A stretch of DNA of 64,000 bases, from positions 496,001-560,000 of the forward strand of contig NZ_WSEL01000009.1 in NCBI RefSeq assembly GCF_009758015.1, read 5' to 3'. Positions within the stretch are counted from its first letter, which is position 1, and the number at the start of each line of letters is the position of its first letter. The notes under the pieces were generated by a model, which worked only from the letters and a program-made list of their open reading frames with translations, had not been told where the DNA came from and did not search any database. Below are positions 7,530 to 63,612 of this stretch, one piece after another. The translations under genes were made by a program, and so were the position numbers. This stretch comes from Ramlibacter pinisoli (GTDB lineage Bacteria; Pseudomonadota; Gammaproteobacteria; Burkholderiales; Burkholderiaceae_C).

Positions 7530-8306
7530 TCAGAGCACGAACGGCCGTCCCGTCACCGGCGTGGTCGCCACCGCCATGTCCTGCTTGGCCATGATGCCGC
7601 CCTCGTACGCCAGGCGGCCGCCCTCGATGGCCAGCCTGAACGCGCGCGCCATGGTCACCGGGTCGTGTGCCAGCGCCACGGCCGAATTCACCAGCACGGC
7701 GTCGTAACCCAGTTCCATCGCCTGCACCGCATCGCGCGGCGAGCCGATGCCGGCGTCGACCACCAGCGGCACGTCGGGCAGGCGGGCGCGCAGCGTGCGC
7801 AAGGCGGTGGGGTTCAGCAGGCCCTGTCCGGACCCGATGGGCGCGCCCCAGGGCATGAGGATCCTGCAGCCGGCGTCGAGCAGGCGGTTGCAGGTGACGA
7901 GGTCGTCGGTGCAATACGGGAACACCTCGAAGCCGTCCCGGGCCAGCTCGCGTGCGGCCTCGACCAGCTCCCAGGGATCGGGCTGCAGGGTGTACTCGTC
8001 GCCCACCACCTCGAGCTTGATCCAGTGCGTGCCGAACATCTCGCGCGCCATGCGCGCCAGCGTGACGGCCTCGCGCGCGGTGGTGCAGCCGGCCGTGTTG
8101 GGCAGCAGGTGGGCGCCGCTGTCGCGCACCATGCGGTAGAAGTCGCCGGCGCCGGCGCCACCCGAGAGCTGGCGGCGCAGGCCGACGGTGACCACCTGGG
8201 TGCCGGCGGCACGGATGGCATCGCCCAGCACCTCGGGCGAGGGGTAGCTGGCGGTGCCCAGGAAGAAGCGGCTCTCGAGCGTGGCGCCGCCGATGGAAAA
8301 GGCCAT
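7530..8306 (-). CDS. thiG: Thiazole synthase
   Basis: A 258-residue TIM-barrel enzyme that builds the thiazole phosphate ring of thiamine from deoxyxylulose 5-phosphate, ThiS thiocarboxylate and dehydroglycine. Visible signatures are the N-terminal [15 protein letters not shown], the Schiff-base lysine context [23 protein letters not shown] and the phosphate-binding [12 protein letters not shown]. It is the last gene of the TPP-riboswitch operon and starts 4 bases after the thiS stop. ThiO, encoded two genes upstream, supplies the glycine-derived imine. Confidence 0.96.
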
Positions 8307-8310
8307 GGGA

Positions 8311-8514
8311 TCAGCCTCCGGTGATGGGTTCGAAGGTCAGCACGACGTCGCCGTCGCGCAGGGGATGCCGCTCGCGCAGGTCGCGCGGGACGAAGTCGCC
8401 GTTGACGGCGGTGGCCAGCGAGGCCGGTGGCTTGTCGAGCAGGGTGACGAGGGTGGCCAGCGTGGCGCCGTCGTCGAGCTCCAGGCGATCCTTGTTCAAC
8501 TGGATGGCGATCAT
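8311..8514 (-). CDS. thiS: Sulfur carrier protein ThiS
   Basis: A 67-residue ubiquitin-fold protein ending in the diagnostic Gly-Gly (FEPITGG), which is adenylated and converted to a thiocarboxylate that donates sulfur to ThiG. The start ATG overlaps the thiO stop, and thiG follows after 4 bases. Size and C-terminus are typical. Confidence 0.95.
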
Positions 8515-9542
8515 GCGAGGGACTCCAGGGCGGTCTCCACCAGGCCGGGCGCGATGAGCCAGCCGTGGCGGAACAGCCCGTTGATGCGGGTGAGGCCCGG
8601 CTGCGAGTCGAGCACGGGCTGGTTGTCGGGCAAGGCGGGACGCAGGTTGCTTTCCGAGTGCACGATCCGGGCTTCCGCCAGCGCCGGCACGATGCTGTGG
8701 GCGGCCGCGAGCAGTTCGACCGTGCTGCGCACCGAGACCGGCGAGCGGTCCTCGCTCTCGATCTCGCTGGCCCCCACGACCACGATGTCGGGCGCGCGCG
8801 GCACCAGGTAGACACGGTGGCGCGCATGCAGCAGGCGCACCGGCCGGCGCAGTTCCACGCCCGGCGCCTGCAGCCAGAAGATCTCGCCGCGCACGCCGCG
8901 CACCGGCAGCTGCGGGCGCGCGCCCAGCCCGCGCACGTCGAACACCCAGTCGTACGGCTCGCGCCGGCCGCCCAGGTGCAGGCAGCCCGGCTCGACCGCG
9001 TCGACCGGCGACGACCAGTGCCAGTGCGCCGAGGGAGCGCCGGCCACCAGGGCCTGCATGGCCTGCACGGTGTGGATGCGGCCCTCGCCGCGCAGCAGCC
9101 AGGCTTGCGGGCCGGCGCGCAGCGACGGCTCCAGGCCGGCGAGGTCGCCGGCCGTGAGGGGCTCGGCCTCGTGTCCTGCCGGCAATTTGCGGGCCAGCAG
9201 GTCCAGCACGCGGCGCGCCGCGCCGGCGTCCTCGCGGTGCGCGACCAGCAGGCTGCCGTCGAGCGCGAACTCCACCGGCTGCGGCAGCCCGCGCAGGATG
9301 GCCGGCCACAGCTCGATGGAGCGCAGGCCCCAGCGAAACACGCGGTCGTCGGCCGTCTCGAGTTCGGCCAGCGGACTGAGCATGCCGGCCGCTGTCCAGC
9401 CGGCCGCCCCGCGCCCGTCCGGGCCCGGGGCGGGATCGTGCACGTGCACCGCGTGGCCGGCGCGTGCGAGCGTGAACGCCAGCAGCCGGCCCAGCAGGCC
9501 GGCGCCGGCGATGCCGATGCGCAGGGAACGCAGCGAGGTCAT
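8511..9542 (-). CDS. thiO: Glycine oxidase ThiO
   Basis: A 343-residue FAD-dependent D-amino-acid-oxidase-family protein that oxidises glycine to the imine used by ThiG. The N-terminal dinucleotide-binding motif GIAGAGLLGRLLAFTLARAG and the AAGMLSPLAE segment are characteristic of ThiO, as is the C-terminal NGLFRHGWLIAPG. The start overlaps the thiE stop, and its stop overlaps the thiS start. Presence of thiO rather than thiH indicates the aerobic route to thiazole. Confidence 0.94.
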   Translation of the reverse strand: MTSLRSLRIGIAGAGLLGRLLAFTLARAGHAVHVHDPAPGPDGRGAAGWTAAGMLSPLAELETADDRVFRWGLRSIELWPAILRGLPQPVEFALDGSLLVAHREDAGAARRVLDLLARKLPAGHEAEPLTAGDLAGLEPSLRAGPQAWLLRGEGRIHTVQAMQALVAGAPSAHWHWSSPVDAVEPGCLHLGGRREPYDWVFDVRGLGARPQLPVRGVRGEIFWLQAPGVELRRPVRLLHARHRVYLVPRAPDIVVVGASEIESEDRSPVSVRSTVELLAAAHSIVPALAEARIVHSESNLRPALPDNQPVLDSQPGLTRINGLFRHGWLIAPGLVETALESLA

Positions 9543-10627
9543 GCGAGCGCTCCCAGCGTCGGGTGCGGCCGGGCCGGCACCGGCGTGGCCGCCGCCTCGG
9601 CATGACCGGTCGCGAACGCCTCCTGCAAGGCCGGCACGACCTGGCGCGGGTCGGCGCCGAGGCCGCGCAGCACGCACACGCCGTCGGCGCCGGCCCGGGC
9701 GGTGAGCCGGACCTGCTCGGCGGTGAGGATGCCACCGATGGCGACGACCGGCGCCCGGGCCGCGCGGCACCACCAGGCCAGGTTGTCCAGGCCCTGCGGC
9801 CGCCACGGCATGTCCTTGGTGGTGGTCGGCCACACGGGCCCGCAGGCGACATAGCGCGGCGCCAGCGCGCGGGCGCGGGCCAGCTCCCACATCGCATGCG
9901 AGCTGATGCCCAGGGCGACGCCGCTGGCACGCAGCTCGGCCCGGCCGGCCTCGCCCAGCGCCAGCAGGTCTTCCTGCCCGAGATGGACCGCCGCGGCGCC
10001 GAACTCGGCCGCCAGGCGCCAGTGGTCGTTGATGAACAGCGTGGCACCGGCGTCGCGTGCCAGCGCAAGGCCCTCGCCCAACGTAGGGCGCAAGGCGTTG
10101 TCCCAGGCCGCATCCGCGTCGGCCGGGCGCTTGACGCGCAGCTGCACGGTGCGAACGCCCGCCTGCAGCACCTGGCGCAGCCGGGCCGTGCTGTCGACGA
10201 TGGCGTACAGGCCGAGCGGCTCGCGCGCCGGCATGGCCGCCTGCGCCGCCGGCGCCCCCTGGTCGCCCCAGGACAGCAGGGGCAGCGACGGCCAGGCCAG
10301 CAGCGCGGCGTCGGCCGGCACGTGTCCCTGCGCCAGCGCGGCTCCCCAGGCCTGCGCGAAGGTCGGGACGTCGTCGCCGCGGATCCAGCCGCGGGCCTGT
10401 TGCGCGTCGAGCCAGTGGGCGGCTTCGCCATCGATCCGGTCGACGGACAGGACGACCACCGCCGCCGCACCACCGGCACGCAGCGCGGTCGCCAGCGCGC
10501 GGGCCGCATCGGCCGGCGCCAGGCCGCGGACGCCGTGCACTTCGCAGGCCTGCGCGAACGGCATGACCTCCGGCACCGTCGAGCCGGTGGCGAGCACCGC
10601 CACCAGGGGCATGGTTGCGGCGTTCAT
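9539..10627 (-). CDS. thiE: Thiamine-phosphate synthase with extra N-terminal domain
   Basis: A 362-residue protein, well over the usual 200-220. Residues from about 135 (LGLYAIVDS) to about 345 are a complete ThiE barrel that joins the pyrimidine and thiazole phosphates: QLRVK, FINDHWRLA, VHLGQEDL, YVACGPVWPTTTKDMP and VVAIGGI. The first 120 residues have no ThiE role. The stretch from AAVVVLS through HWLDA to AQGHVPADAALLA resembles the C-terminal part of a ThiD-type kinase, but the GTGCT phosphate-binding loop is missing, so this half looks like a decayed ThiD fragment (my inference). The start overlaps the SDR stop (ATGA). Confidence 0.92.
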   Translation of the reverse strand: MNAATMPLVAVLATGSTVPEVMPFAQACEVHGVRGLAPADAARALATALRAGGAAAVVVLSVDRIDGEAAHWLDAQQARGWIRGDDVPTFAQAWGAALAQGHVPADAALLAWPSLPLLSWGDQGAPAAQAAMPAREPLGLYAIVDSTARLRQVLQAGVRTVQLRVKRPADADAAWDNALRPTLGEGLALARDAGATLFINDHWRLAAEFGAAAVHLGQEDLLALGEAGRAELRASGVALGISSHAMWELARARALAPRYVACGPVWPTTTKDMPWRPQGLDNLAWWCRAARAPVVAIGGILTAEQVRLTARAGADGVCVLRGLGADPRQVVPALQEAFATGHAEAAATPVPARPHPTLGALA

Positions 10628-11391
10628 CGCATCACCCTCCCGCCATCGACGAACAGCACCTGGCCGGTCATGAAGCCGGCGAGCGGCGACGCCAGGAACA
10701 GCACCGGGCCGGCCACGTCGTCGGGCCGGGCCAGCCGGCGCAGCGGCGTGGCCGCCATCAGCGCCTCGCGGAACGACGCGCGGGTGCCGGCGCTGCCCTC
10801 GGTCGGGTGCACCAGGCCGGGCGCGACGCAGTTGACGCGCACGCCCTGCGGCCCGGCCTCGGCGGCCAGCTGCCGGCTGAAGCCGACCAGGGCCGACTTG
10901 GCCGTGGCGTAGTCGTGGTACGGCACGACGGGGTCCTCGACCAGGTCGGTCACGATGTTGACGATGGCGCCCTGCGCCCGCGTGCGCAGGTGCGGCAGCG
11001 CGGCGCGGCAGACATGGAAGGCCGCGCCGACCGAACCCTCGAACTGGCCCTGGTAGTCCGACCAGGCCAGGGCCTCGAACGGCTTGCGCCGCTCGGGGTC
11101 GAAGCTGTAGGGGGCGAACGCGTTGTTCACCACCACGTCGAGACGTCCCAGGTCCTGCGCGACACGGCCGACCAGTCCGGCCGCTTCGGACGGGACGGTG
11201 ACGTCGGCCTGCAGCGCCACACCGTCGCCGCCCGCCTGGCGGCAGGCCTGCGCCACGTCCTGGGCGGCGTCGGCGCGCCGCAGGTAATTGACTGCCACGG
11301 TGGCGCCGCGGGCCGCGAACGCCTTGGCGATGGCCGCGCCGATGCCGCGCGACGCGCCCGTGACCAGGACCACCTTGCCCGAAAAATCCAT
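10624..11391 (-). CDS. Short-chain dehydrogenase/reductase in the thiamine operon
   Basis: A 255-residue Rossmann-fold oxidoreductase. The cofactor motif is TGASRGIGAAIA, NNAF replaces the usual NNAG, and the catalytic YxxxK is YATAK. The position 13 residues before the active Tyr, normally Ser, is Thr (IVTDL), which is unusual. The C-terminal end (GQVLFVDGG) is of the FabG type. It starts 13 bases after the binding-protein gene behind AAGGAAGGA and overlaps thiE. It is not a standard thiamine gene. With the LuxE-like and LuxC-like proteins of the same operon it could complete reduction of an aldehyde to an alcohol. The substrate is unknown. Confidence 0.9.
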   Translation of the reverse strand: MDFSGKVVLVTGASRGIGAAIAKAFAARGATVAVNYLRRADAAQDVAQACRQAGGDGVALQADVTVPSEAAGLVGRVAQDLGRLDVVVNNAFAPYSFDPERRKPFEALAWSDYQGQFEGSVGAAFHVCRAALPHLRTRAQGAIVNIVTDLVEDPVVPYHDYATAKSALVGFSRQLAAEAGPQGVRVNCVAPGLVHPTEGSAGTRASFREALMAATPLRRLARPDDVAGPVLFLASPLAGFMTGQVLFVDGGRVMR

Positions 11392-11404
11392 TCCCGTCCT
11401 TCCT

Positions 11405-12394
11405 TCAGCGTCCCGGCAGCAGGTCGACCGCGACCACCTGCGCCATGTCCAGGGGGTGCTGCACCAGCTCGAGCTGCCGGTACACGTCGGCAGCCTTCTG
11501 CAGCATGGCGACGTCCATGGTGCCGAGCCCGCGCTGCCTGGTGAGCTCGCTCACGCTGGAGGCATTGCGGACCTTGATGATCTCCAGCGCGAGCTCCGGG
11601 TCGGTGGCGTCGATGGCGCGCTTGCCCGCCAGCGCGGCCGCCTCGGCCGGACTGGCCATCATCCAGGCCGCGCTGTCGCGGTAGCCGCGCAGGAACCGGC
11701 GCAGCACGTCCTTGCGGCGCTGGTACACCTCCTCGCGCACCACGAACAGGTCGCTCGAGACGTTGAGCACCTTGCCGACTTCCATCACGTCGACCTCGGC
11801 CAGGCCGCGCCGCCGGCCGACCAGCAGGCCGGTGTCGGTGGCCGCGGTGGCGTCGACCTGCCCCTGCAGCAGGGGCGCGAAATTCAGCAGGCCGGTGACG
11901 ACCACGGTGACGTCTGCCTCGCTCAGGCCGGCCAGGTGCAGCATCACCTGCAGGTTCTGGCGCGTGCCGCTGGACAGGCTGTAGACGCCGATGCGCTTGC
12001 CCTTGAGGTCGGCCGGCTTGCGGATCCCGCTCTTGCGCAGCGACACCACGTTGAACACGTTCTGCGGGTAGATGTCGTAGATGGCGCGCAGCTTCTCGCC
12101 CTTGTCGAGGGCGGCGAACAGCGAACCGGGATCGGTGAACGCCACGTCGGCCTGGCCGCTGAGGATGTTGCGGATGGCATCGCCGCCACCGGCGCCCGGG
12201 ATGTAGTCGAGGGTGATGCCCTGGGCCCGGTAGAACGGCTTGTCCTCGTCCACCAGCAGCGGCGTGACCTCGGTGATGGGCTTGCTCCAGCCCGCGACCG
12301 TCACCTTGTCGGGGCGCGGCTGTGCCAGGAGGGGAGCGGAGAGGCCGATGCCGGCGGCGGCCAGGAGCAGGTGGCGGCGGGTGGTCAGGTGCAT
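11405..12394 (-). CDS. thiY: ABC transporter substrate-binding protein, ThiY-like (NMT1/THI5 fold)
   Basis: A 329-residue periplasmic binding protein with an N-terminal export signal that has a twin-arginine look (TTRRHLLLAAAG) ending near LLAQP. The body has the NMT1/THI5 pattern (ILSGQADVAFTDPGSL, LKGKRIGVYSLSSGTRQ). In many proteobacteria the TPP-regulated ThiXYZ system imports formylated aminopyrimidine precursors of thiamine, and the position inside this riboswitch operon assigns it to that group. Its true ligand cannot be read from sequence. It follows the permease gene by 5 bases. Confidence 0.85.
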   Translation of the reverse strand: MHLTTRRHLLLAAAGIGLSAPLLAQPRPDKVTVAGWSKPITEVTPLLVDEDKPFYRAQGITLDYIPGAGGGDAIRNILSGQADVAFTDPGSLFAALDKGEKLRAIYDIYPQNVFNVVSLRKSGIRKPADLKGKRIGVYSLSSGTRQNLQVMLHLAGLSEADVTVVVTGLLNFAPLLQGQVDATAATDTGLLVGRRRGLAEVDVMEVGKVLNVSSDLFVVREEVYQRRKDVLRRFLRGYRDSAAWMMASPAEAAALAGKRAIDATDPELALEIIKVRNASSVSELTRQRGLGTMDVAMLQKAADVYRQLELVQHPLDMAQVVAVDLLPGR

Positions 12395-12399
12395 GGCGG

Positions 12400-13164
12400 T
12401 CAGGCGGAGTGGGTGTAGGGACGCAGCAGGCGGCGCTCGAGCAGCACGGTCGCCTGGTAGAGGGCCAGGCCGAGAACGGAGATCAGCACCAGCACCGCGA
12501 ACATCAGCGCGGTGTCCATGCTGCCCTGCGCCGCGATGATGAGCGCGCCCAGGCCGTGGCTGGCGCCGATGAACTCGCCCACCACGGCACCGACCAGCGC
12601 CAGCACGACGGCGATGCGCAGGCCGGCGAGGACGGACGGCAGGCCGCTGGGCAGCTTGAGCCGCCACAGCGTCTGGGCGCGGCTCGCGCCCAGCATCCGG
12701 AACAGCTCGAGCCGGTCGGGCGGCACCTGCGCCAGGCCGGTCATGGTGTTCTCCATCAGCGGGAAGAAACAGATCAGCGCGGTGATGACCACGGTGGATG
12801 TCTGGCCGAAGCCGAACCAGATGATGAAGAGCGGCATCAGCGCCAGCTTGGGCACGACCTGGCTCACCACCACGTAGGGCATGAGCAGCCGGCGCAGCGC
12901 GGGCTGCTCGGCCAGCACCACGCCGGCGGCGAACCCGATGCCGCAACCGAGGAGCAGCCCCAGCAGCAGTTCGCTGCCAGTGGCGCGCAGGTGCGGCCAC
13001 AGGTAACCGCTGGCCAGTCCCTTGCCCAGGGCGGCCAGCACTGCGCTGGGCGGCGGCAGCACCAGTGCCGAGAGCGACAACCCGCGGGCGGCGGCTTCCC
13101 ACGCCGCCAGCAGCGCCGCCAGCAGCGCGAGGCTGGCGAGCCGGTCGCGTGGGCTCACGCGCAT
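12400..13164 (-). CDS. thiX: ABC transporter permease, ThiX-like
   Basis: A 254-residue inner-membrane permease of the SsuC/TauC family with about six hydrophobic segments and the cytoplasmic EAA-type loop (ELFRMLGASRAQTLWRLKLPSGLPSVLAGLRI) that contacts the ATPase. The start ATG lies 10 bases inside the end of the ATPase gene. It is assigned as the thiamine-precursor importer because it sits in the TPP-riboswitch operon between ThiZ- and ThiY-like genes. Confidence 0.87.
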   Translation of the reverse strand: MRVSPRDRLASLALLAALLAAWEAAARGLSLSALVLPPPSAVLAALGKGLASGYLWPHLRATGSELLLGLLLGCGIGFAAGVVLAEQPALRRLLMPYVVVSQVVPKLALMPLFIIWFGFGQTSTVVITALICFFPLMENTMTGLAQVPPDRLELFRMLGASRAQTLWRLKLPSGLPSVLAGLRIAVVLALVGAVVGEFIGASHGLGALIIAAQGSMDTALMFAVLVLISVLGLALYQATVLLERRLLRPYTHSA

Positions 13165-13895
13165 GCCGCCTCCTCCAGGCCCAGGGCCTCGCGCACGTCG
13201 GCGCAGGCGCGGCCGAAAGCCGGCGTGTCGCGCGTGCGCGCCTCGGGAGCGACATCGACGGTGCGCACCAGCCGGCCCCCGGCGATGACCGAGACCTGGT
13301 CGCCCAGGAACACCGCCTCGGCGATGTCGTGCGTGACGAACAGCACCGAGGTGCCGCCGGTGCGCACCACCCGCAGCAGGTCGCGCTGCAGTTCCTCCCG
13401 GGTGATGGCGTCCAGCGCGGCGAACGGCTCGTCGAGCAGCAGCAGCGGCGGCTGCAGCAGCAAGGCGCGGGCGAGCGCGACCCGGCTCTGCTGGCCGCCG
13501 GACAGCTGGCGCGGGTAGCGCGGGCCGAAGCCGGCCAGGCCCAGTTGCGCCAGCAGCGCATCGGCTGCCTGCTCGTCCTGCCGGGCGGGGCGCCGTTGCA
13601 GCGAGACCGGCAGCAGCACGTTGGCGCGCACCGTCAGCCAGTCGAGCAGGGTCGCCGACTGGAACACGAAGCCGACCTCGCGCCGGTCGTCCGGCGCCGC
13701 GCCGCGCAGCAACACCCGGCCGCGCGCCGGCGCCAGCAGGCCGGCCGCGAGCTTGAGCAGCGTGGTCTTGCCGCAGCCGCTGCGGCCCACCAGGCAGCGG
13801 ATCTCCCCGGCCCCCACCGACAGCGAGACGTCGTCGACCACCGGCGGGAACCCGGGGTAGCCGAACGACACGCCTTGCAGTTGCAGGAAGCTCAC
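13155..13895 (-). CDS. thiZ: ABC transporter ATP-binding protein, ThiZ-like
   Basis: A 246-residue ATPase with Walker A GRSGCGKTT, signature LSGGQQSR, Walker B LLLLDEPFAALD and H-loop FVTHDIAEAV. A GTG start at 13895 is chosen because translation from SFLQLQGVSFGYPGF gives the normal family N-terminus, and it overlaps the stop of the acyl-reductase gene (GTGA). It energises the permease encoded immediately downstream. Confidence 0.9.
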   Translation of the reverse strand: MSFLQLQGVSFGYPGFPPVVDDVSLSVGAGEIRCLVGRSGCGKTTLLKLAAGLLAPARGRVLLRGAAPDDRREVGFVFQSATLLDWLTVRANVLLPVSLQRRPARQDEQAADALLAQLGLAGFGPRYPRQLSGGQQSRVALARALLLQPPLLLLDEPFAALDAITREELQRDLLRVVRTGGTSVLFVTHDIAEAVFLGDQVSVIAGGRLVRTVDVAPEARTRDTPAFGRACADVREALGLEEAACA

Positions 13896-15361
13896 GGCGA
13901 CCCCTCCTGCGCATACGGAGCCAGGCGGTCGGCGGCGCGCTCGGCCGCCTGTTCGATCTCGACGATGCGCACCAGGTCCGCCAGGTTGAAGCGGCCGTCG
14001 TGGTGCCAGCCGGCTTCCGGCTGCGTCATCGCGCCCAGCGGCGCGATGCGGGTGATGCCGGCCTGGCCGAACACGTCCGCCAGCCGGTGCAGCTCGGACG
14101 GGTCGGCCGCCAGGCCCAGCGTCTGCAGCACGGCGGCATGCGGTTGCACCAGCGGCACCACGTCGTCGAGCGCGTCGACGGCGCTGACTTGCACGCACCG
14201 ATGGCCGGCCGACGGCGCGAAGGGCTGGGGTGCCTCGCTGTAGGCGACCGCCCAGGGGCCTTGCTCGTCGCCGAACAGTTCGCCGCCCTGCCCGGCCAGC
14301 GCGCGCCATTCGGCCGACTGGCGCCAGCCCGCCACGCCGGCCGATTCGGCGAGCGAGAGGTGCCGCCGCGGGTGCCGCTGCTCCAGGTTCGCCAGTTCGC
14401 CGGCCAGGTGCTGGGCAAAGTCGCGCGGGGCCATGGCGCCGCCCCGCTCCACGTAGAGGGCATGCGGCGAGTAGCAGCCCTGCTGCTCGAAGCGCACCAC
14501 GTCGAGCGCCGCCAGCCGCGCCGCGGCCGGGCCGCGCTGGCGGTCCAGCGCCGCGCGGCCCACCAGGGCCAGGCCGAGCTTGTGGCCGTACCCCAGGAAA
14601 CGCGTCGTCACGGGCACGCGCTCGCGCACCTCGCGCAGCGCCGCGTTGCCGCCATAGGCGAGCACCACCTCGGCTTCGCGGTACAGCGCCACGTCGGGGC
14701 CGGCCTCGCCGCCCTTCCACCAGACCACCGCAAGGCAGTCCGCCAGCGGCGGGTGCACCTCGGCCAGCAGCCGTGCCAACAGGCTGGCGAACACGGGCTC
14801 CGCGCTGGGCAGCTTGCCGACGTTGCCGGCCTTCACCAGCAGGCCGCACGCCAGGCTCCAGAGCGGCAGCCCCGGCACGTTGCCGGCCCAGCCGTGGGCC
14901 AGCACGCGCGGCCCGAAGGCGCGCACCGCACCGCCCTTCACCGCGGGCTGGAAGCCGTCCAGCACCTTGGGGTTGGCGAAGTCCTGGGCCACGAAACGGC
15001 GCAACTGCGGTGCGCGGAACGCCTGCAGGTAGGCGGTCAGGCCCAGCCGCACCATCTCGGGGTCGTAGCCGGTGACCACCGGCAGCAGGTCGTCCAGGCG
15101 CCGGCGCACGGGGTCGGCGGGGTCGAGCAGGCGCGCGACGGCGCGGTCGACAACGTCGATGATGGCGTCCACCGGCATGCGGTGCAGCGTCTCCTGCGCG
15201 GCACGCCCGACCCGGCGGGCCAGGGCCTGCATCTGCGCCTCCGTGAGCAGGGGCACCTCGACCACGGCTTCGCGCCCGTGGGCGGCAAAGCGCAGCTCGC
15301 GCCACTGCACGTCGGCGGCATCCAGCCCCGGCAGGTGGCCGGCACGCAGGCGGTCGGTCAT
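13892..15361 (-). CDS. LuxC-like acyl-CoA/acyl-thioester reductase
   Basis: A 489-residue member of the LuxC family (aldehyde-dehydrogenase fold), which reduces an acyl thioester to an aldehyde with NADPH via an acyl-cysteine. The candidate nucleophile is Cys296 in FEQQGCYSPHALYVE, equivalent to the cysteine in the QQxCSSPH motif of bioluminescence LuxC. Other family blocks visible are VLAHGWAGNVPGLPLWSL and KLPSAEPVFASL. It overlaps the upstream LuxE-like gene and the downstream ATPase gene by four bases each. No luxAB is present, so light emission is not its role. The position in a TPP-riboswitch operon suggests a carboxylate reduction connected with thiamine precursors. Confidence 0.88.
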   Translation of the reverse strand: MTDRLRAGHLPGLDAADVQWRELRFAAHGREAVVEVPLLTEAQMQALARRVGRAAQETLHRMPVDAIIDVVDRAVARLLDPADPVRRRLDDLLPVVTGYDPEMVRLGLTAYLQAFRAPQLRRFVAQDFANPKVLDGFQPAVKGGAVRAFGPRVLAHGWAGNVPGLPLWSLACGLLVKAGNVGKLPSAEPVFASLLARLLAEVHPPLADCLAVVWWKGGEAGPDVALYREAEVVLAYGGNAALREVRERVPVTTRFLGYGHKLGLALVGRAALDRQRGPAAARLAALDVVRFEQQGCYSPHALYVERGGAMAPRDFAQHLAGELANLEQRHPRRHLSLAESAGVAGWRQSAEWRALAGQGGELFGDEQGPWAVAYSEAPQPFAPSAGHRCVQVSAVDALDDVVPLVQPHAAVLQTLGLAADPSELHRLADVFGQAGITRIAPLGAMTQPEAGWHHDGRFNLADLVRIVEIEQAAERAADRLAPYAQEGSP

Positions 15362-16458
15362 GCGCGGGCCGCCTCCAGGAACTCCTGCACGGCCAGCGAA
15401 CAGCCTTTGGCCTGCGCACCCTGCGCCCGACCGAGCAGCAGGAAGCCGTGGTCCGTGGCCACGCCCACGTCCTCGGTCAGGATGGCGGTGGCCGAATTGA
15501 AGTTCGCCAGGTCGCAGTGCGCCAGCACGCCGCGCTGGCCGGCCGGCACGTCGCGGCCGGTGAGCGGGTCCACCACGCGGGTGCGCACCCAGTGCGGGCC
15601 GGACTTGACCGAGGGCACGACGGCATTGCCGTCGTCGTAGAACTGCGAGCTGAGCTCGGTCATGCCGTACATGTTGATGCAGCGTTCGCGCGGCACGCCG
15701 AACGCGCGCACCAGCGCGTCGTAGAACGCGTCCGGCGCCAGCTCGCGCGACTGGTTCTTGTAGCCGCCGGTGTCCAGGATGCGGCTGCCCGCGGGCAAGG
15801 CGAAGGCCAGGCTGCGCGCCTGCAGGGCGTCCAGGAGGTGCACGAAGCTCGCACTCGCGCCGAGGATGGCGATCGGCTGCCCGCCGGCCTGCGCCTGGGC
15901 CAGGGCGGCGCAGACGCCGTCGACGTCGAGGCCGCTGGCCACGCTCACGTACGACCGGCCGCCCGGCGCGCCGAAGGTGCGGGCCGCCAGCGAGAGGTAG
16001 CGCGCCAGCGAGGAGTTGCGCAACTCGGCCTCGTCCGGGAACAGCAGGACCATGGGCATTTGCCGCGCGCCCTGCAGGAAGCGGCGCTCGAAGTTGCGGC
16101 GCATGGAGACATCCCACACCGCGATGGTCGGGTGGTGGTTGCGGCCCTTCACCTCGCCGCGCGTGGTGCCGCTGGTCATGAAGATGCGTTCGCAGTCGGC
16201 CGGTGGCACGCAGGTCAGCGTGGCGTCCTTGAACGCGCTGATCGGCACCGGCGGGATCTGACGCCACCCCTGCAGGCGGTGCGGGGCCATGCCGCGCCGC
16301 TGGCAGAAGCGCCGGTAGGGCTCGTCGTTCGCGAACTGGAAGGCGAACAGCTCCGCGGCGACGGCGTCGAATTCGGCGTCGGTGCAGCCCTCCTGCGCGA
16401 GGAAGGCGAGCAGGCGATCGACGACCGGCTGCAGGAGGGGCGGCACCGGGTGCGTCAT
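15358..16458 (-). CDS. LuxE-like acyl-protein synthetase (acyl-activating enzyme)
   Basis: A 366-residue adenylate-forming enzyme of the LuxE/PaaK group. It should activate a carboxylic acid with ATP and carry the acyl group on a C-terminal cysteine for delivery to a LuxC reductase. Visible motifs are TSGTT at about 95-99, DTGGYKNQS near 229-237, YGMTE at 264-268, and a C-terminal KGCSLAVQEF whose Cys353 matches the position of the acyl-carrying cysteine in LuxE. Its start overlaps the thiD stop, and its stop overlaps the LuxC-like start. The substrate is unknown, and neighbours imply a thiamine-related acid. Confidence 0.88.
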   Translation of the reverse strand: MTHPVPPLLQPVVDRLLAFLAQEGCTDAEFDAVAAELFAFQFANDEPYRRFCQRRGMAPHRLQGWRQIPPVPISAFKDATLTCVPPADCERIFMTSGTTRGEVKGRNHHPTIAVWDVSMRRNFERRFLQGARQMPMVLLFPDEAELRNSSLARYLSLAARTFGAPGGRSYVSVASGLDVDGVCAALAQAQAGGQPIAILGASASFVHLLDALQARSLAFALPAGSRILDTGGYKNQSRELAPDAFYDALVRAFGVPRERCINMYGMTELSSQFYDDGNAVVPSVKSGPHWVRTRVVDPLTGRDVPAGQRGVLAHCDLANFNSATAILTEDVGVATDHGFLLLGRAQGAQAKGCSLAVQEFLEAARA

Positions 16459-17297
16459 GCGAGGGGGCACAGTTGCATCGGCCGCGGTGCGTGGCCGTGG
16501 TTCAGGGGACCGCTGCCGGCGCCGGTGCGCACCTCGGCGCCGGCGCGCAGCGCCGACCGCACGTAGTCGCTGGCCTGGCGCACCGCCTGCTCGAGGCCAG
16601 CCCCCAGGGCGAGCGAGGCGGCGATGGCACTGGACAGGGTGCAGCCGGTGCCGTGGGTGTTGGGCGTGGCGATGCGCGGCTGGCGCAGCCACACGGGAGC
16701 GGCGCCGGTGGCCAGCAGCAGGTCGCTGACCGTGTCGCCCTGCAGGTGCCCGCCCTTGAGCAGGACGGCGTTCGCACCCATCGCCAGCAGCTGGCGGGCG
16801 GCGGCTTCCATGTCGGCTTCGGTTCGCAGCGGCCGTTCGACCAGCAGCGCCGCCTCGTCGAGGTTGGGCGTGACGAGCAGTGCCCGCGGGAACAGCTCGC
16901 GCACGAGCGAGGCGACCGCGGCCGGATCGATGAGGGTGGCGCCGCTCGTGGCCACCATCACGGGGTCGAGCACCACCTGGCGCAACGCGTGGCGATCGAG
17001 CGCGGCGGCGACGGCTTGCACCGTGGGAGCGGAATGCAGCATCCCGATCTTCACGGCATCGACCCCGATGTCTTCCACCACCGCATCGATCTGGTCGGCC
17101 AGGATGTCCAGCGGCACGGCATGGATGGACCGCACGCCGAGCGTGTTCTGGGCGGTGAGCGCCGTGATGGCCGTCATGCCGTAGCAGCCGAGCGCGGCGA
17201 TCGCCTTGAGATCGGCCTGCACGCCTGCGCCGCCTCCGGAATCGGACCCGGCGATGGACAGCACGCGCGGATACTGGAAGCGCTGCGGACCGTTCAT
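16455..17297 (-). CDS. thiD: Hydroxymethylpyrimidine/phosphomethylpyrimidine kinase
   Basis: A 280-residue ribokinase-fold enzyme that phosphorylates 4-amino-5-hydroxymethyl-2-methylpyrimidine twice before joining by ThiE. Signatures: LSIAGSDSGGGAGVQADLK, MTAITALTAQNT, VLDPVMVATSG and the anion-hole loop THGTGCTLSSA. The chosen ATG (MNGPQRFQYPRV) matches the family N-terminus and overlaps the stop of a 12-codon upstream reading frame. It is the first structural gene downstream of the TPP riboswitch and the head of an eleven-gene operon. Confidence 0.94.
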   Translation of the reverse strand: MNGPQRFQYPRVLSIAGSDSGGGAGVQADLKAIAALGCYGMTAITALTAQNTLGVRSIHAVPLDILADQIDAVVEDIGVDAVKIGMLHSAPTVQAVAAALDRHALRQVVLDPVMVATSGATLIDPAAVASLVRELFPRALLVTPNLDEAALLVERPLRTEADMEAAARQLLAMGANAVLLKGGHLQGDTVSDLLLATGAAPVWLRQPRIATPNTHGTGCTLSSAIAASLALGAGLEQAVRQASDYVRSALRAGAEVRTGAGSGPLNHGHAPRPMQLCPLA

Positions 17298-17332
17298 GGA
17301 CGGCCTCTCGCGGTGCTGGCAATCGGGATCAT
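17294..17332 (-). CDS. Possible 12-residue leader ORF coupling the riboswitch to thiD
   Basis: A short frame, MIPIASTARGRP, begins with ATG at 17332 directly after a very strong Shine-Dalgarno AAAGGAGG and ends in TGA overlapping the thiD start (ATGA). The ribosome site of thiD itself is weak (GAGAGG), so the riboswitch may act on this strong site and thiD be read by coupling. Whether the peptide is made is unknown. Confidence 0.45.
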   Translation of the reverse strand: MIPIASTARGRP

Positions 17333-17396
17333 GGAGCCTCCTTTGCGCAAATGGCAGGTGCTCCGAAGGACGGTGCGCCATGGCCGACGGCCCTGG

Positions 17397-17478
17397 CGGG
17401 TGCTCTTCTTACGCCGGTCTGAACCGGTTCAAGTTCACGGGTCTGGATCTCAGCACGCTATCGCGTACACCCCGGAGC
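17397..17478 (-). promoter_or_regulatory. TPP riboswitch (THI element)
   Basis: Reading the minus strand, the element shows GGGGTG near 17473, then GCTGAGATCCAGACCC, GAACTTGAACCGGTTCAG, ACCGGCGTAAG and a closing GAGCACC. These are the conserved thi-box landmarks (the CUGAGA core and the GAACCGGUU...ACCGGCG segment) in the right order and spacing. Downstream, TCCTT at about 17366-17370 can pair with the AAGGA of the strong ribosome site at about 17335-17344, suggesting translational control of the operon by thiamine pyrophosphate. Confidence 0.93.
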
Positions 17479-30287: not shown

Positions 30288-30363
30288 TCTCGATTCCTCT
30301 TTTCGGCGCCCTCCCCTGCCCACGGTAATGGGCAGGCTCGGCGACCAATAGATTCGTCTTGGG

Positions 30364-63446: not shown

Positions 63447-63612
63447 CCCCCACCCCATCGCGCTCCCACCCGGCACGCCTCTTGCAAATCGCTCCCCGGA
63501 GTAGAAGCAGTCAGTGGCGCAGGCCGCGGGTCATTGCTCCGGTGGCGGGACGAGGGTCCCGCCGCGCACCTGATCGGTGCGCCTTGTTCCATCGACATCA
63601 CCGGAGAACCGC

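Follow-up and report, generated by a model that had tools for sequence, protein, structure and literature searches.

A LuxE/LuxC/SDR gene set under TPP riboswitch control in Ramlibacter pinisoli: a candidate salvage module for the thiamine pyrimidine

Long-chain fatty acids are the familiar substrates of LuxE- and LuxC-type enzymes, and the closest described system that combines them is the fatty acid reductase LuxCDE of luminous bacteria (structure 7xc6). On the side of thiamine (vitamin B1), regulons under thiamine pyrophosphate (TPP) riboswitches hold thiD, thiE, thiO, thiS and thiG, and the pyrimidine half of the vitamin is supplied by the ThiC or THI5 routes. ThiXYZ systems have been proposed elsewhere as importers of formylaminopyrimidine (FAMP) or hydroxymethylpyrimidine (HMP), the usual FAMP route (ThiXYZ-YlmB-TenA), which salvages base-degraded thiamine, passing through an amidohydrolase and ending in TenA. 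We analyzed a 64-kb stretch of DNA from the soil bacterium Ramlibacter pinisoli (contig NZ_WSEL01000009.1, positions 496,001 to 560,000, hereafter the window), from a source genome of 5,505,957 bases on 11 contigs that is 99.98% complete. The window carries a minus-strand operon of eleven tightly packed genes with a TPP riboswitch at its head, in which LuxE-like, LuxC-like and short-chain dehydrogenase/reductase (SDR) genes stand among thiamine genes. From the riboswitch, the order is thiD, LuxE-like, LuxC-like, thiZ, thiX, thiY, SDR, thiE, thiO, thiS and thiG (Table 1).

This operon resembles the TPP-riboswitch thiamine regulons in its riboswitch and its thiD, thiE, thiO, thiS and thiG genes, and differs from them by the addition of LuxE and LuxC; we know of no described TPP regulon that contains both. 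An earlier sequence-only reading of the window likewise knew of no such description, and our search of open-licence literature (titles and the beginnings of abstracts, with regulon databases outside the search) found no LuxE/LuxC thiamine operon; the papers that it returned include PMC3599157 and PMC6482342, whose titles concern other subjects. A term search of the main text of a survey of RNA-controlled regulons returned no word beginning with "lux" (PMC3766115). In comparison with LuxCDE, the enzymes are of the same LuxE and LuxC types with both cysteines aligned, whereas the operon is under TPP control, includes an importer and an SDR, scores far below the luminous equivalog cut-offs and yielded no LuxD-like acyl transferase in a Pfam scan of ten of its eleven proteins (all except ThiS). 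It shares with the FAMP route an NMT1-type importer under thiamine control, the ThiY protein being nearest to structure 3ix1 by Z score, but has an acid-reducing trio (LuxE, LuxC and SDR) where that route has the amidohydrolase and TenA. As in the ThiC and THI5 routes, the same pyrimidine would be fed to ThiD and ThiE, whereas the source genome has no ThiC match and its ThiY lacks the THI5 cysteine motif.

We propose with moderate confidence that the LuxE, LuxC, SDR and ThiXYZ genes form a salvage module that is repressed by TPP and supplies the thiamine pyrimidine through the ATP- and NAD(P)H-driven reduction of a presumed pyrimidine acid. The genes, the riboswitch, the conserved cysteines, the conserved unit and the link between the module and ThiG retention in ThiC-less genomes were all computed and are presented below.

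A conserved six-gene unit and its TPP riboswitch

Among 399 genomes of the order, a first-round search with LuxE matched 17, eight at 57-100% identity and nine at 23-28%. All eight close genomes (the window and seven others) share the order LuxE-LuxC-ThiZ-ThiX-ThiY-SDR, and the presence of thiD, thiE, thiO, thiS and thiG around this block is limited to the window and one relative (G240). The Rfam TPP riboswitch was found upstream of LuxE in 7/7 relatives, four above the gathering score and three below it; the one in the window scores just below gathering (51.4 against 54.3 bits), so that a default scan misses the aptamer. Scanning species genomes with the 8-row LuxE alignment recovered 308 stretches with a LuxE relative, and neighbourhoods were counted in the best 80, which contain near relatives and two loci from a single assembly (L097 and L101). 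The six-gene order was kept in 74 of the 80 loci and was interrupted by a contig end in the remaining six; all 80 loci fit the module.

A model built from the eight first-round riboswitches matched upstream of LuxE, on the same strand, in 79/80 loci; in the only locus without a match (L063), the LuxE match starts at contig base 266. Loci with weak model matches were rechecked with Rfam and scored above gathering in 7/7 cases, as did L162 and L163, four of these nine loci (L094, L101, L113 and L115) belonging to the 80. The model also matched 8/8 module loci of another set. In contrast, a TPP riboswitch was found in 0/12 loci with a distant LuxE (model at E 0.01; Rfam at gathering). This contrast is the strongest evidence supporting a role of the LuxE/LuxC/SDR trio in thiamine metabolism, and the thiamine-related function put forward by the sequence-only reading also agrees with the fixed order with thiZXY and with the retention of ThiG in ThiC-less genomes. 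The neighbouring thiamine genes vary more: thiD lies immediately upstream in 31/80 loci and thiE immediately downstream in 23/80. Since 49/80 loci have no adjacent thiD, the riboswitch is the constant thiamine link. The association of homologues with thiamine genes that the sequence-only reading expected is mixed, present for the riboswitch and failing, in those 49 loci, for thiD. Among 46 stand-alone loci, no further flanking gene was generally conserved; the commonest flanking cluster occurred in 11 and looks like synteny within a clade.

By record titles, the module was found in Ramlibacter, Curvibacter, Polaromonas, Variovorax, Acidovorax, Bordetella and Achromobacter, and in the alphaproteobacterial Bosea. 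A phylum-wide survey (398 genomes) gave additional strong LuxE matches in G830, from a different class, and G1016, from the same class and a different order. All six genes are present in G830, which stands beside Bosea on the LuxE tree. This tree has 51 rows, 48 of them from the module, and these 48 fall into a single clade with a support of 100/100.

Individual loci showed further particularities. One module copy (L089) is on a record titled Variovorax plasmid pVarWS11_2, a hint that transfer may have occurred. In L101, a second TPP riboswitch (13269-13366, 56.4 bits) lies downstream of the module, and the locus also has thiO- and thiG-like genes. For L163, an additional riboswitch-like match of 21.9 bits was dropped, as it was unconfirmed by Rfam at gathering. 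In G1016 (L157, 4117-10463), the riboswitch-LuxE-LuxC-SDR set has a pair of AbiE-like genes and one Macro-domain gene as neighbours.

Proposed reductive enzymes, importer and candidate substrate

The key cysteines that the sequence-only reading had described as intact, Cys353 of the LuxE-like and Cys296 of the LuxC-like protein, are each invariant among close relatives. Cys353 is so in the eight first-round LuxE rows, together with T95-S96-G97-T98 and Y264-GMTE, and Cys296 in 15 LuxC rows; Cys353 also falls in the conservation class of at least 90% in a 30-row LuxE alignment with distant homologues. The luminous system 7xc6 provides matches for both proteins in its LuxE and LuxC chains, and both cysteines align with the catalytic ones of that structure. 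In the SDR, Tyr161 and Lys165, presumably the catalytic residues, are kept in 15/15 rows, and the usual serine site is occupied by either Ser or Thr. The SDR name oarX may denote a thiamine-linked oxidoreductase; the word was absent from the papers listed in a literature search.

The structure model of the LuxE-like protein (predicted local distance difference test, pLDDT, of 92) has PaaK-type aryl-acid ligases as its nearest structures. This resemblance is weak evidence, since it may hold for the entire LuxE family (no luminous LuxE served as a control). The luminous LuxE of 7xc6 was not among the 50 structural matches listed for the model, and we draw no conclusion from this. These data bear on the possibility that the trio reduces fatty acids, or carboxylic acids in general, and merely hitch-hikes in thiamine operons. 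The 7xc6 chains, from a fatty acid reductase, are the only clear solved relatives found by sequence, which speaks for such an activity, but the NCBIfam luminous equivalog cut-offs are far off (77.1 of 550 bits for LuxE; 69.8 of 750 bits for LuxC, scanned without its last 41 residues) and the LuxE model, compared without a luminous control, resembles aryl-acid ligases. Together with the presence of the riboswitch in 79/80 module loci and in none of the 12 distant ones, this makes a hitch-hiking reductase quite unlikely; long-chain fatty-acid reduction was ranked low on the riboswitch contrast and the equivalog scores. Separately, the source genome encodes a second LuxE-family frame (L001, G000:C11:115327-116301) with one in-frame TGA, which outscores the thiamine-operon LuxE on the Pfam model (119.7 vs 71.8 bits); its wider locus (L036) gave no TPP riboswitch match with the eight-riboswitch model or with Rfam at gathering.

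Concerning the importer, ThiY is predicted to adopt the NMT1/THI5 fold and to be closest to known thiamine-related binders. For its model (pLDDT 88.4), the top two structures in both rankings were the FAMP-binding 3ix1, nearest by Z, and the thiamin-bound 4nmy; by sequence profile, 3ix1 ranked ninth (E 9.4e-6). That ThiY itself would be a THI5-like maker of HMP phosphate (HMP-P), replacing ThiC alone, is very improbable. The THI5 cysteine motif (CCCFC) was seen in the aligned THI5, and 23/23 module ThiY proteins have no CC-x-C. In addition, the N-terminus of ThiY is signal-like (by eye) and its linkage with a permease and an ATPase is fixed. This candidate was ranked low on the missing motif and the transporter linkage.

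In the salvage pathway that we propose, ThiXYZ would import an oxidised thiamine-related pyrimidine, the carboxylate of which would be activated with ATP by the LuxE-like enzyme and held as an acyl on Cys353. The LuxC-like enzyme would then accept the acyl on Cys296 for an NAD(P)H-dependent reduction to the aldehyde, the whole LuxE/LuxC/SDR relay converting the pyrimidine acid into HMP, which would be handed to ThiD. We infer this chemistry, the direction of reduction and the substrate. Genes that TPP represses should serve the synthesis or salvage of thiamine, so the direction would be from acid to alcohol. The likeliest substrate would be 4-amino-2-methylpyrimidine-5-carboxylate, a candidate that fits the regulatory, gene-content and enzyme evidence. 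The compound is found in nature; the title of an early report on rat urine calls it a metabolite of thiamine (Neal and Pearson 1964, cited in PMC7780320). Where PMC10881298 names salvageable pyrimidine vitamers, these are HMP, aminomethylpyrimidine (AmMP) and FAMP, and the pyrimidine acid is not among them.

The module, ThiC and ThiG across genomes

The panel scored for thiamine genes comprised 48 genomes, of which 40 carry the module and eight are family members without it; with G830 and G1016, the module genomes total 42. In the whole source genome (G000), we found no ThiC match (PF01964) at E 0.001 and no ThiM (PF02110), which extends to the entire genome the absence of thiM noted in the sequence-only reading; ThiG is kept. 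The ThiC match is missing in 12/40 panel module genomes, the source included, and in 3/8 panel genomes without the module, and ThiC is present in G830 and G1016. ThiG is present in all 42 module genomes. The ThiC match was absent from 11/13 genomes with a thiD-linked module vs 1/27 with a stand-alone one (L070; p=3.8e-7), a difference for which Ramlibacter ancestry is a heavy confounder. On the LuxE tree, at least 8 changes of the ThiC state occur, so gains or losses recur.

A survey of 250 genomes of the family, which overlaps the panel and is not independent of it (for example, G400, which holds L043 of Ramlibacter ginsenosidimutans, is the survey's G521), counted 160 genomes with ThiC, 168 with a strong ThiG and 23 with a close LuxE (identity of at least 48%). 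Here, the 29 genomes with nothing beyond weak ThiG matches were scored as ThiG-less, and six with a distant LuxE as module-less. ThiG accompanied the module in 22/23 genomes, the exception being G517. Among the 90 ThiC-less genomes, the module was present in 7/11 with ThiG (the source genome being one of the seven) vs 1/79 without it (p=3.4e-7, shared descent ignored). At the genus level, counting genera that are ThiC-less in every sampled member, the proportions were 4/6 vs 1/46 (p=2.7e-4). ThiC-positive genomes without ThiG carried the module in 0/3 cases. A genome that loses ThiC tends to retain the thiazole branch when the module is present, as expected if the module supplies the pyrimidine, and this retention favours the pyrimidine branch. 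For the sequence-only proposal that the trio reduces an imported acid, the thiamine role is supported and the pyrimidine branch favoured; the exact acid, the last step by the SDR and operation in cells stay presumptive.

Several observations weigh against pyrimidine salvage by the module. Presence of the module was not associated with absence of ThiC in the survey (ThiC in 15/23 module genomes vs 145/227 others, p=1), and a general replacement of ThiC was rejected on this basis, the link emerging only after the split by ThiG. The 30/42 module genomes that keep ThiC point away from an obligate replacement, and the thiD-linked genomes of L043 and L049 still encode it. G517 (55% complete) has the module and neither ThiC nor ThiG, and four ThiC-less, ThiG-positive genomes have no module, so that other pyrimidine sources exist or these genomes are incomplete. 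Ramlibacter tataouinensis TTB310 may bear on this as well, being reported as thiamine-requiring (PMC3164672). G1016 has the riboswitch, LuxE, LuxC and SDR and no transporter genes in the 19.9 kb read. Finally, a strong TenA (E below 1e-45) was found in 3/12 ThiC-less panel module genomes and, among the 11 ThiC-less, ThiG-positive survey genomes, in G636, which has the module (G552, without it and 87% complete, also has a strong TenA, and the source genome a weak one).

The distribution of TenA also bears on another explanation, in which the transporter imports FAMP or HMP, a role already proposed for ThiXYZ systems elsewhere. The trio would then act on some other thiamine-pathway metabolite or alter the imported compound in some way. 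The resemblance of ThiY to 3ix1 would suit such an importer, but the six genes stay together in 74/80 loci, which argues against a separate role of the trio. Moreover, TenA, the end of the usual FAMP route, is strong in just those three of the 12 ThiC-less panel genomes and gave in the source genome a single weak PF03070 match (E 1.3e-10, 42.7 bits, above the family cut-off of 22). We therefore consider this explanation unlikely.

We also weighed a reduction of thiamine acetic acid or thiazole acetic acid, both known thiamine catabolites, to thiamine or hydroxyethylthiazole. In its favour, 4nmy, one of the two best structural matches of ThiY, binds whole thiamin. However, the gene content is the reverse of what thiazole salvage would lead one to expect, with 0/42 module genomes lacking ThiG and 12/42 lacking ThiC, and with ThiG in 22/23 survey module genomes. 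ThiM, which is required for the use of hydroxyethylthiazole, was above cut-off in just 8/48 panel genomes, one of them marginally, and is missing from the source. For whole thiamine, the linkage with thiD, thiE and thiG would make little sense. Overall, reduction of these acids appears improbable, and thiazole salvage was ranked low because ThiG is universal in the 42 module genomes and ThiM is rare.

Returning to pyrimidine salvage, a tentative extension is that the module represents a third pyrimidine supply besides ThiC and THI5. Bacteria that have lost ThiC might still complete thiamine by importing its oxidised pyrimidine acid and reducing it by a LuxE/LuxC/SDR relay in the manner used for bioluminescence aldehydes, a relay that would have spread, under TPP riboswitches, through the Burkholderiales and into a second order of that class and the alphaproteobacteria. 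If so, an energy-spending reductive path would join vitamin B1 salvage, LuxE and LuxC enzymes would gain a role outside light production and an oxidised breakdown product of thiamine would become reusable. Predictions of B1 auxotrophy would shift as well, as ThiC-less genomes scored as pyrimidine auxotrophs, the source genome included, may live on the acid of this pyrimidine. The module may explain how some bacteria keep making B1 after the loss of ThiC.

Operon layout and other features of the window

The TPP riboswitch and the eleven minus-strand genes listed by the sequence-only reading were recovered at about the same positions by reading frames, Pfam, NCBIfam and the covariance model. Its description of short overlaps and tiny gaps was also accurate: neighbouring genes overlap by 4 bases at 7/10 junctions and are separated by 5, 13 and 4 bases at the three others. 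The thiD start was picked by eye, and its PF08543 and TIGR00097 scans were run from an earlier in-frame start at 17381. The frames used in the family scans differ slightly from those in Table 1: LuxC lacked the last 41 residues and ThiY the first 8, and ThiD and ThiZ had some extra N-terminal residues.

Table 1. Positions in the window of the TPP riboswitch and the eleven operon genes, with their supporting matches.
Feature	Position	Strand	Support
TPP riboswitch aptamer RF00059	17389..17484	-	51.4 bits, E 3.6e-9; gathering score 54.3
thiD, HMP/HMP-P kinase	16455..17297	-	PF08543 E 2.6e-94; TIGR00097 316.7 bits, cut-off 204.95
LuxE-like acid-activating enzyme	15358..16458	-	PF04443 72.5 bits; 7xc6 LuxE match E 1.3e-20; Cys353, TSGTT, YGMTE
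LuxC-like thioester reductase	13892..15361	-	PF05893 257 bits; whole protein vs 7xc6 LuxC E 1.2e-14; Cys296
thiZ-like ATP-binding cassette (ABC) transporter ATPase	13155..13895	-	PF00005; conserved order
thiX-like ABC transporter permease	12400..13158	-	PF00528; conserved order
thiY-like solute-binding protein, NMT1/THI5 fold	11405..12394	-	PF09084 E 2.4e-45; likely signal peptide (by eye)
SDR	10624..11391	-	PF13561; Tyr161-x3-Lys165
thiE, thiamine phosphate synthase, 362 residues	9539..10627	-	PF02581 at residues 145-322
thiO, glycine oxidase	8511..9542	-	PF01266; TIGR02352 225.9 bits, below cut-off 250.8
thiS, sulfur carrier, 67 aa, GG end	8311..8514	-	reading frame and relatives; outside family-library scan
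thiG, thiazole synthase	7530..8306	-	PF05690 E 4.6e-101

The N-terminal ~140 residues of ThiE are without a Pfam match. Elsewhere in the window, we observed a xanthine riboswitch (RF03054, 49.6 bits) at 63494-63544, directly 5' of a plus-strand frame that starts at 63577, extends past the window end and resembles, by eye, an NMT1-type binding protein. An ilvH leader RNA (RF02993, 88.1 bits) lies on the minus strand at 30291-30358.

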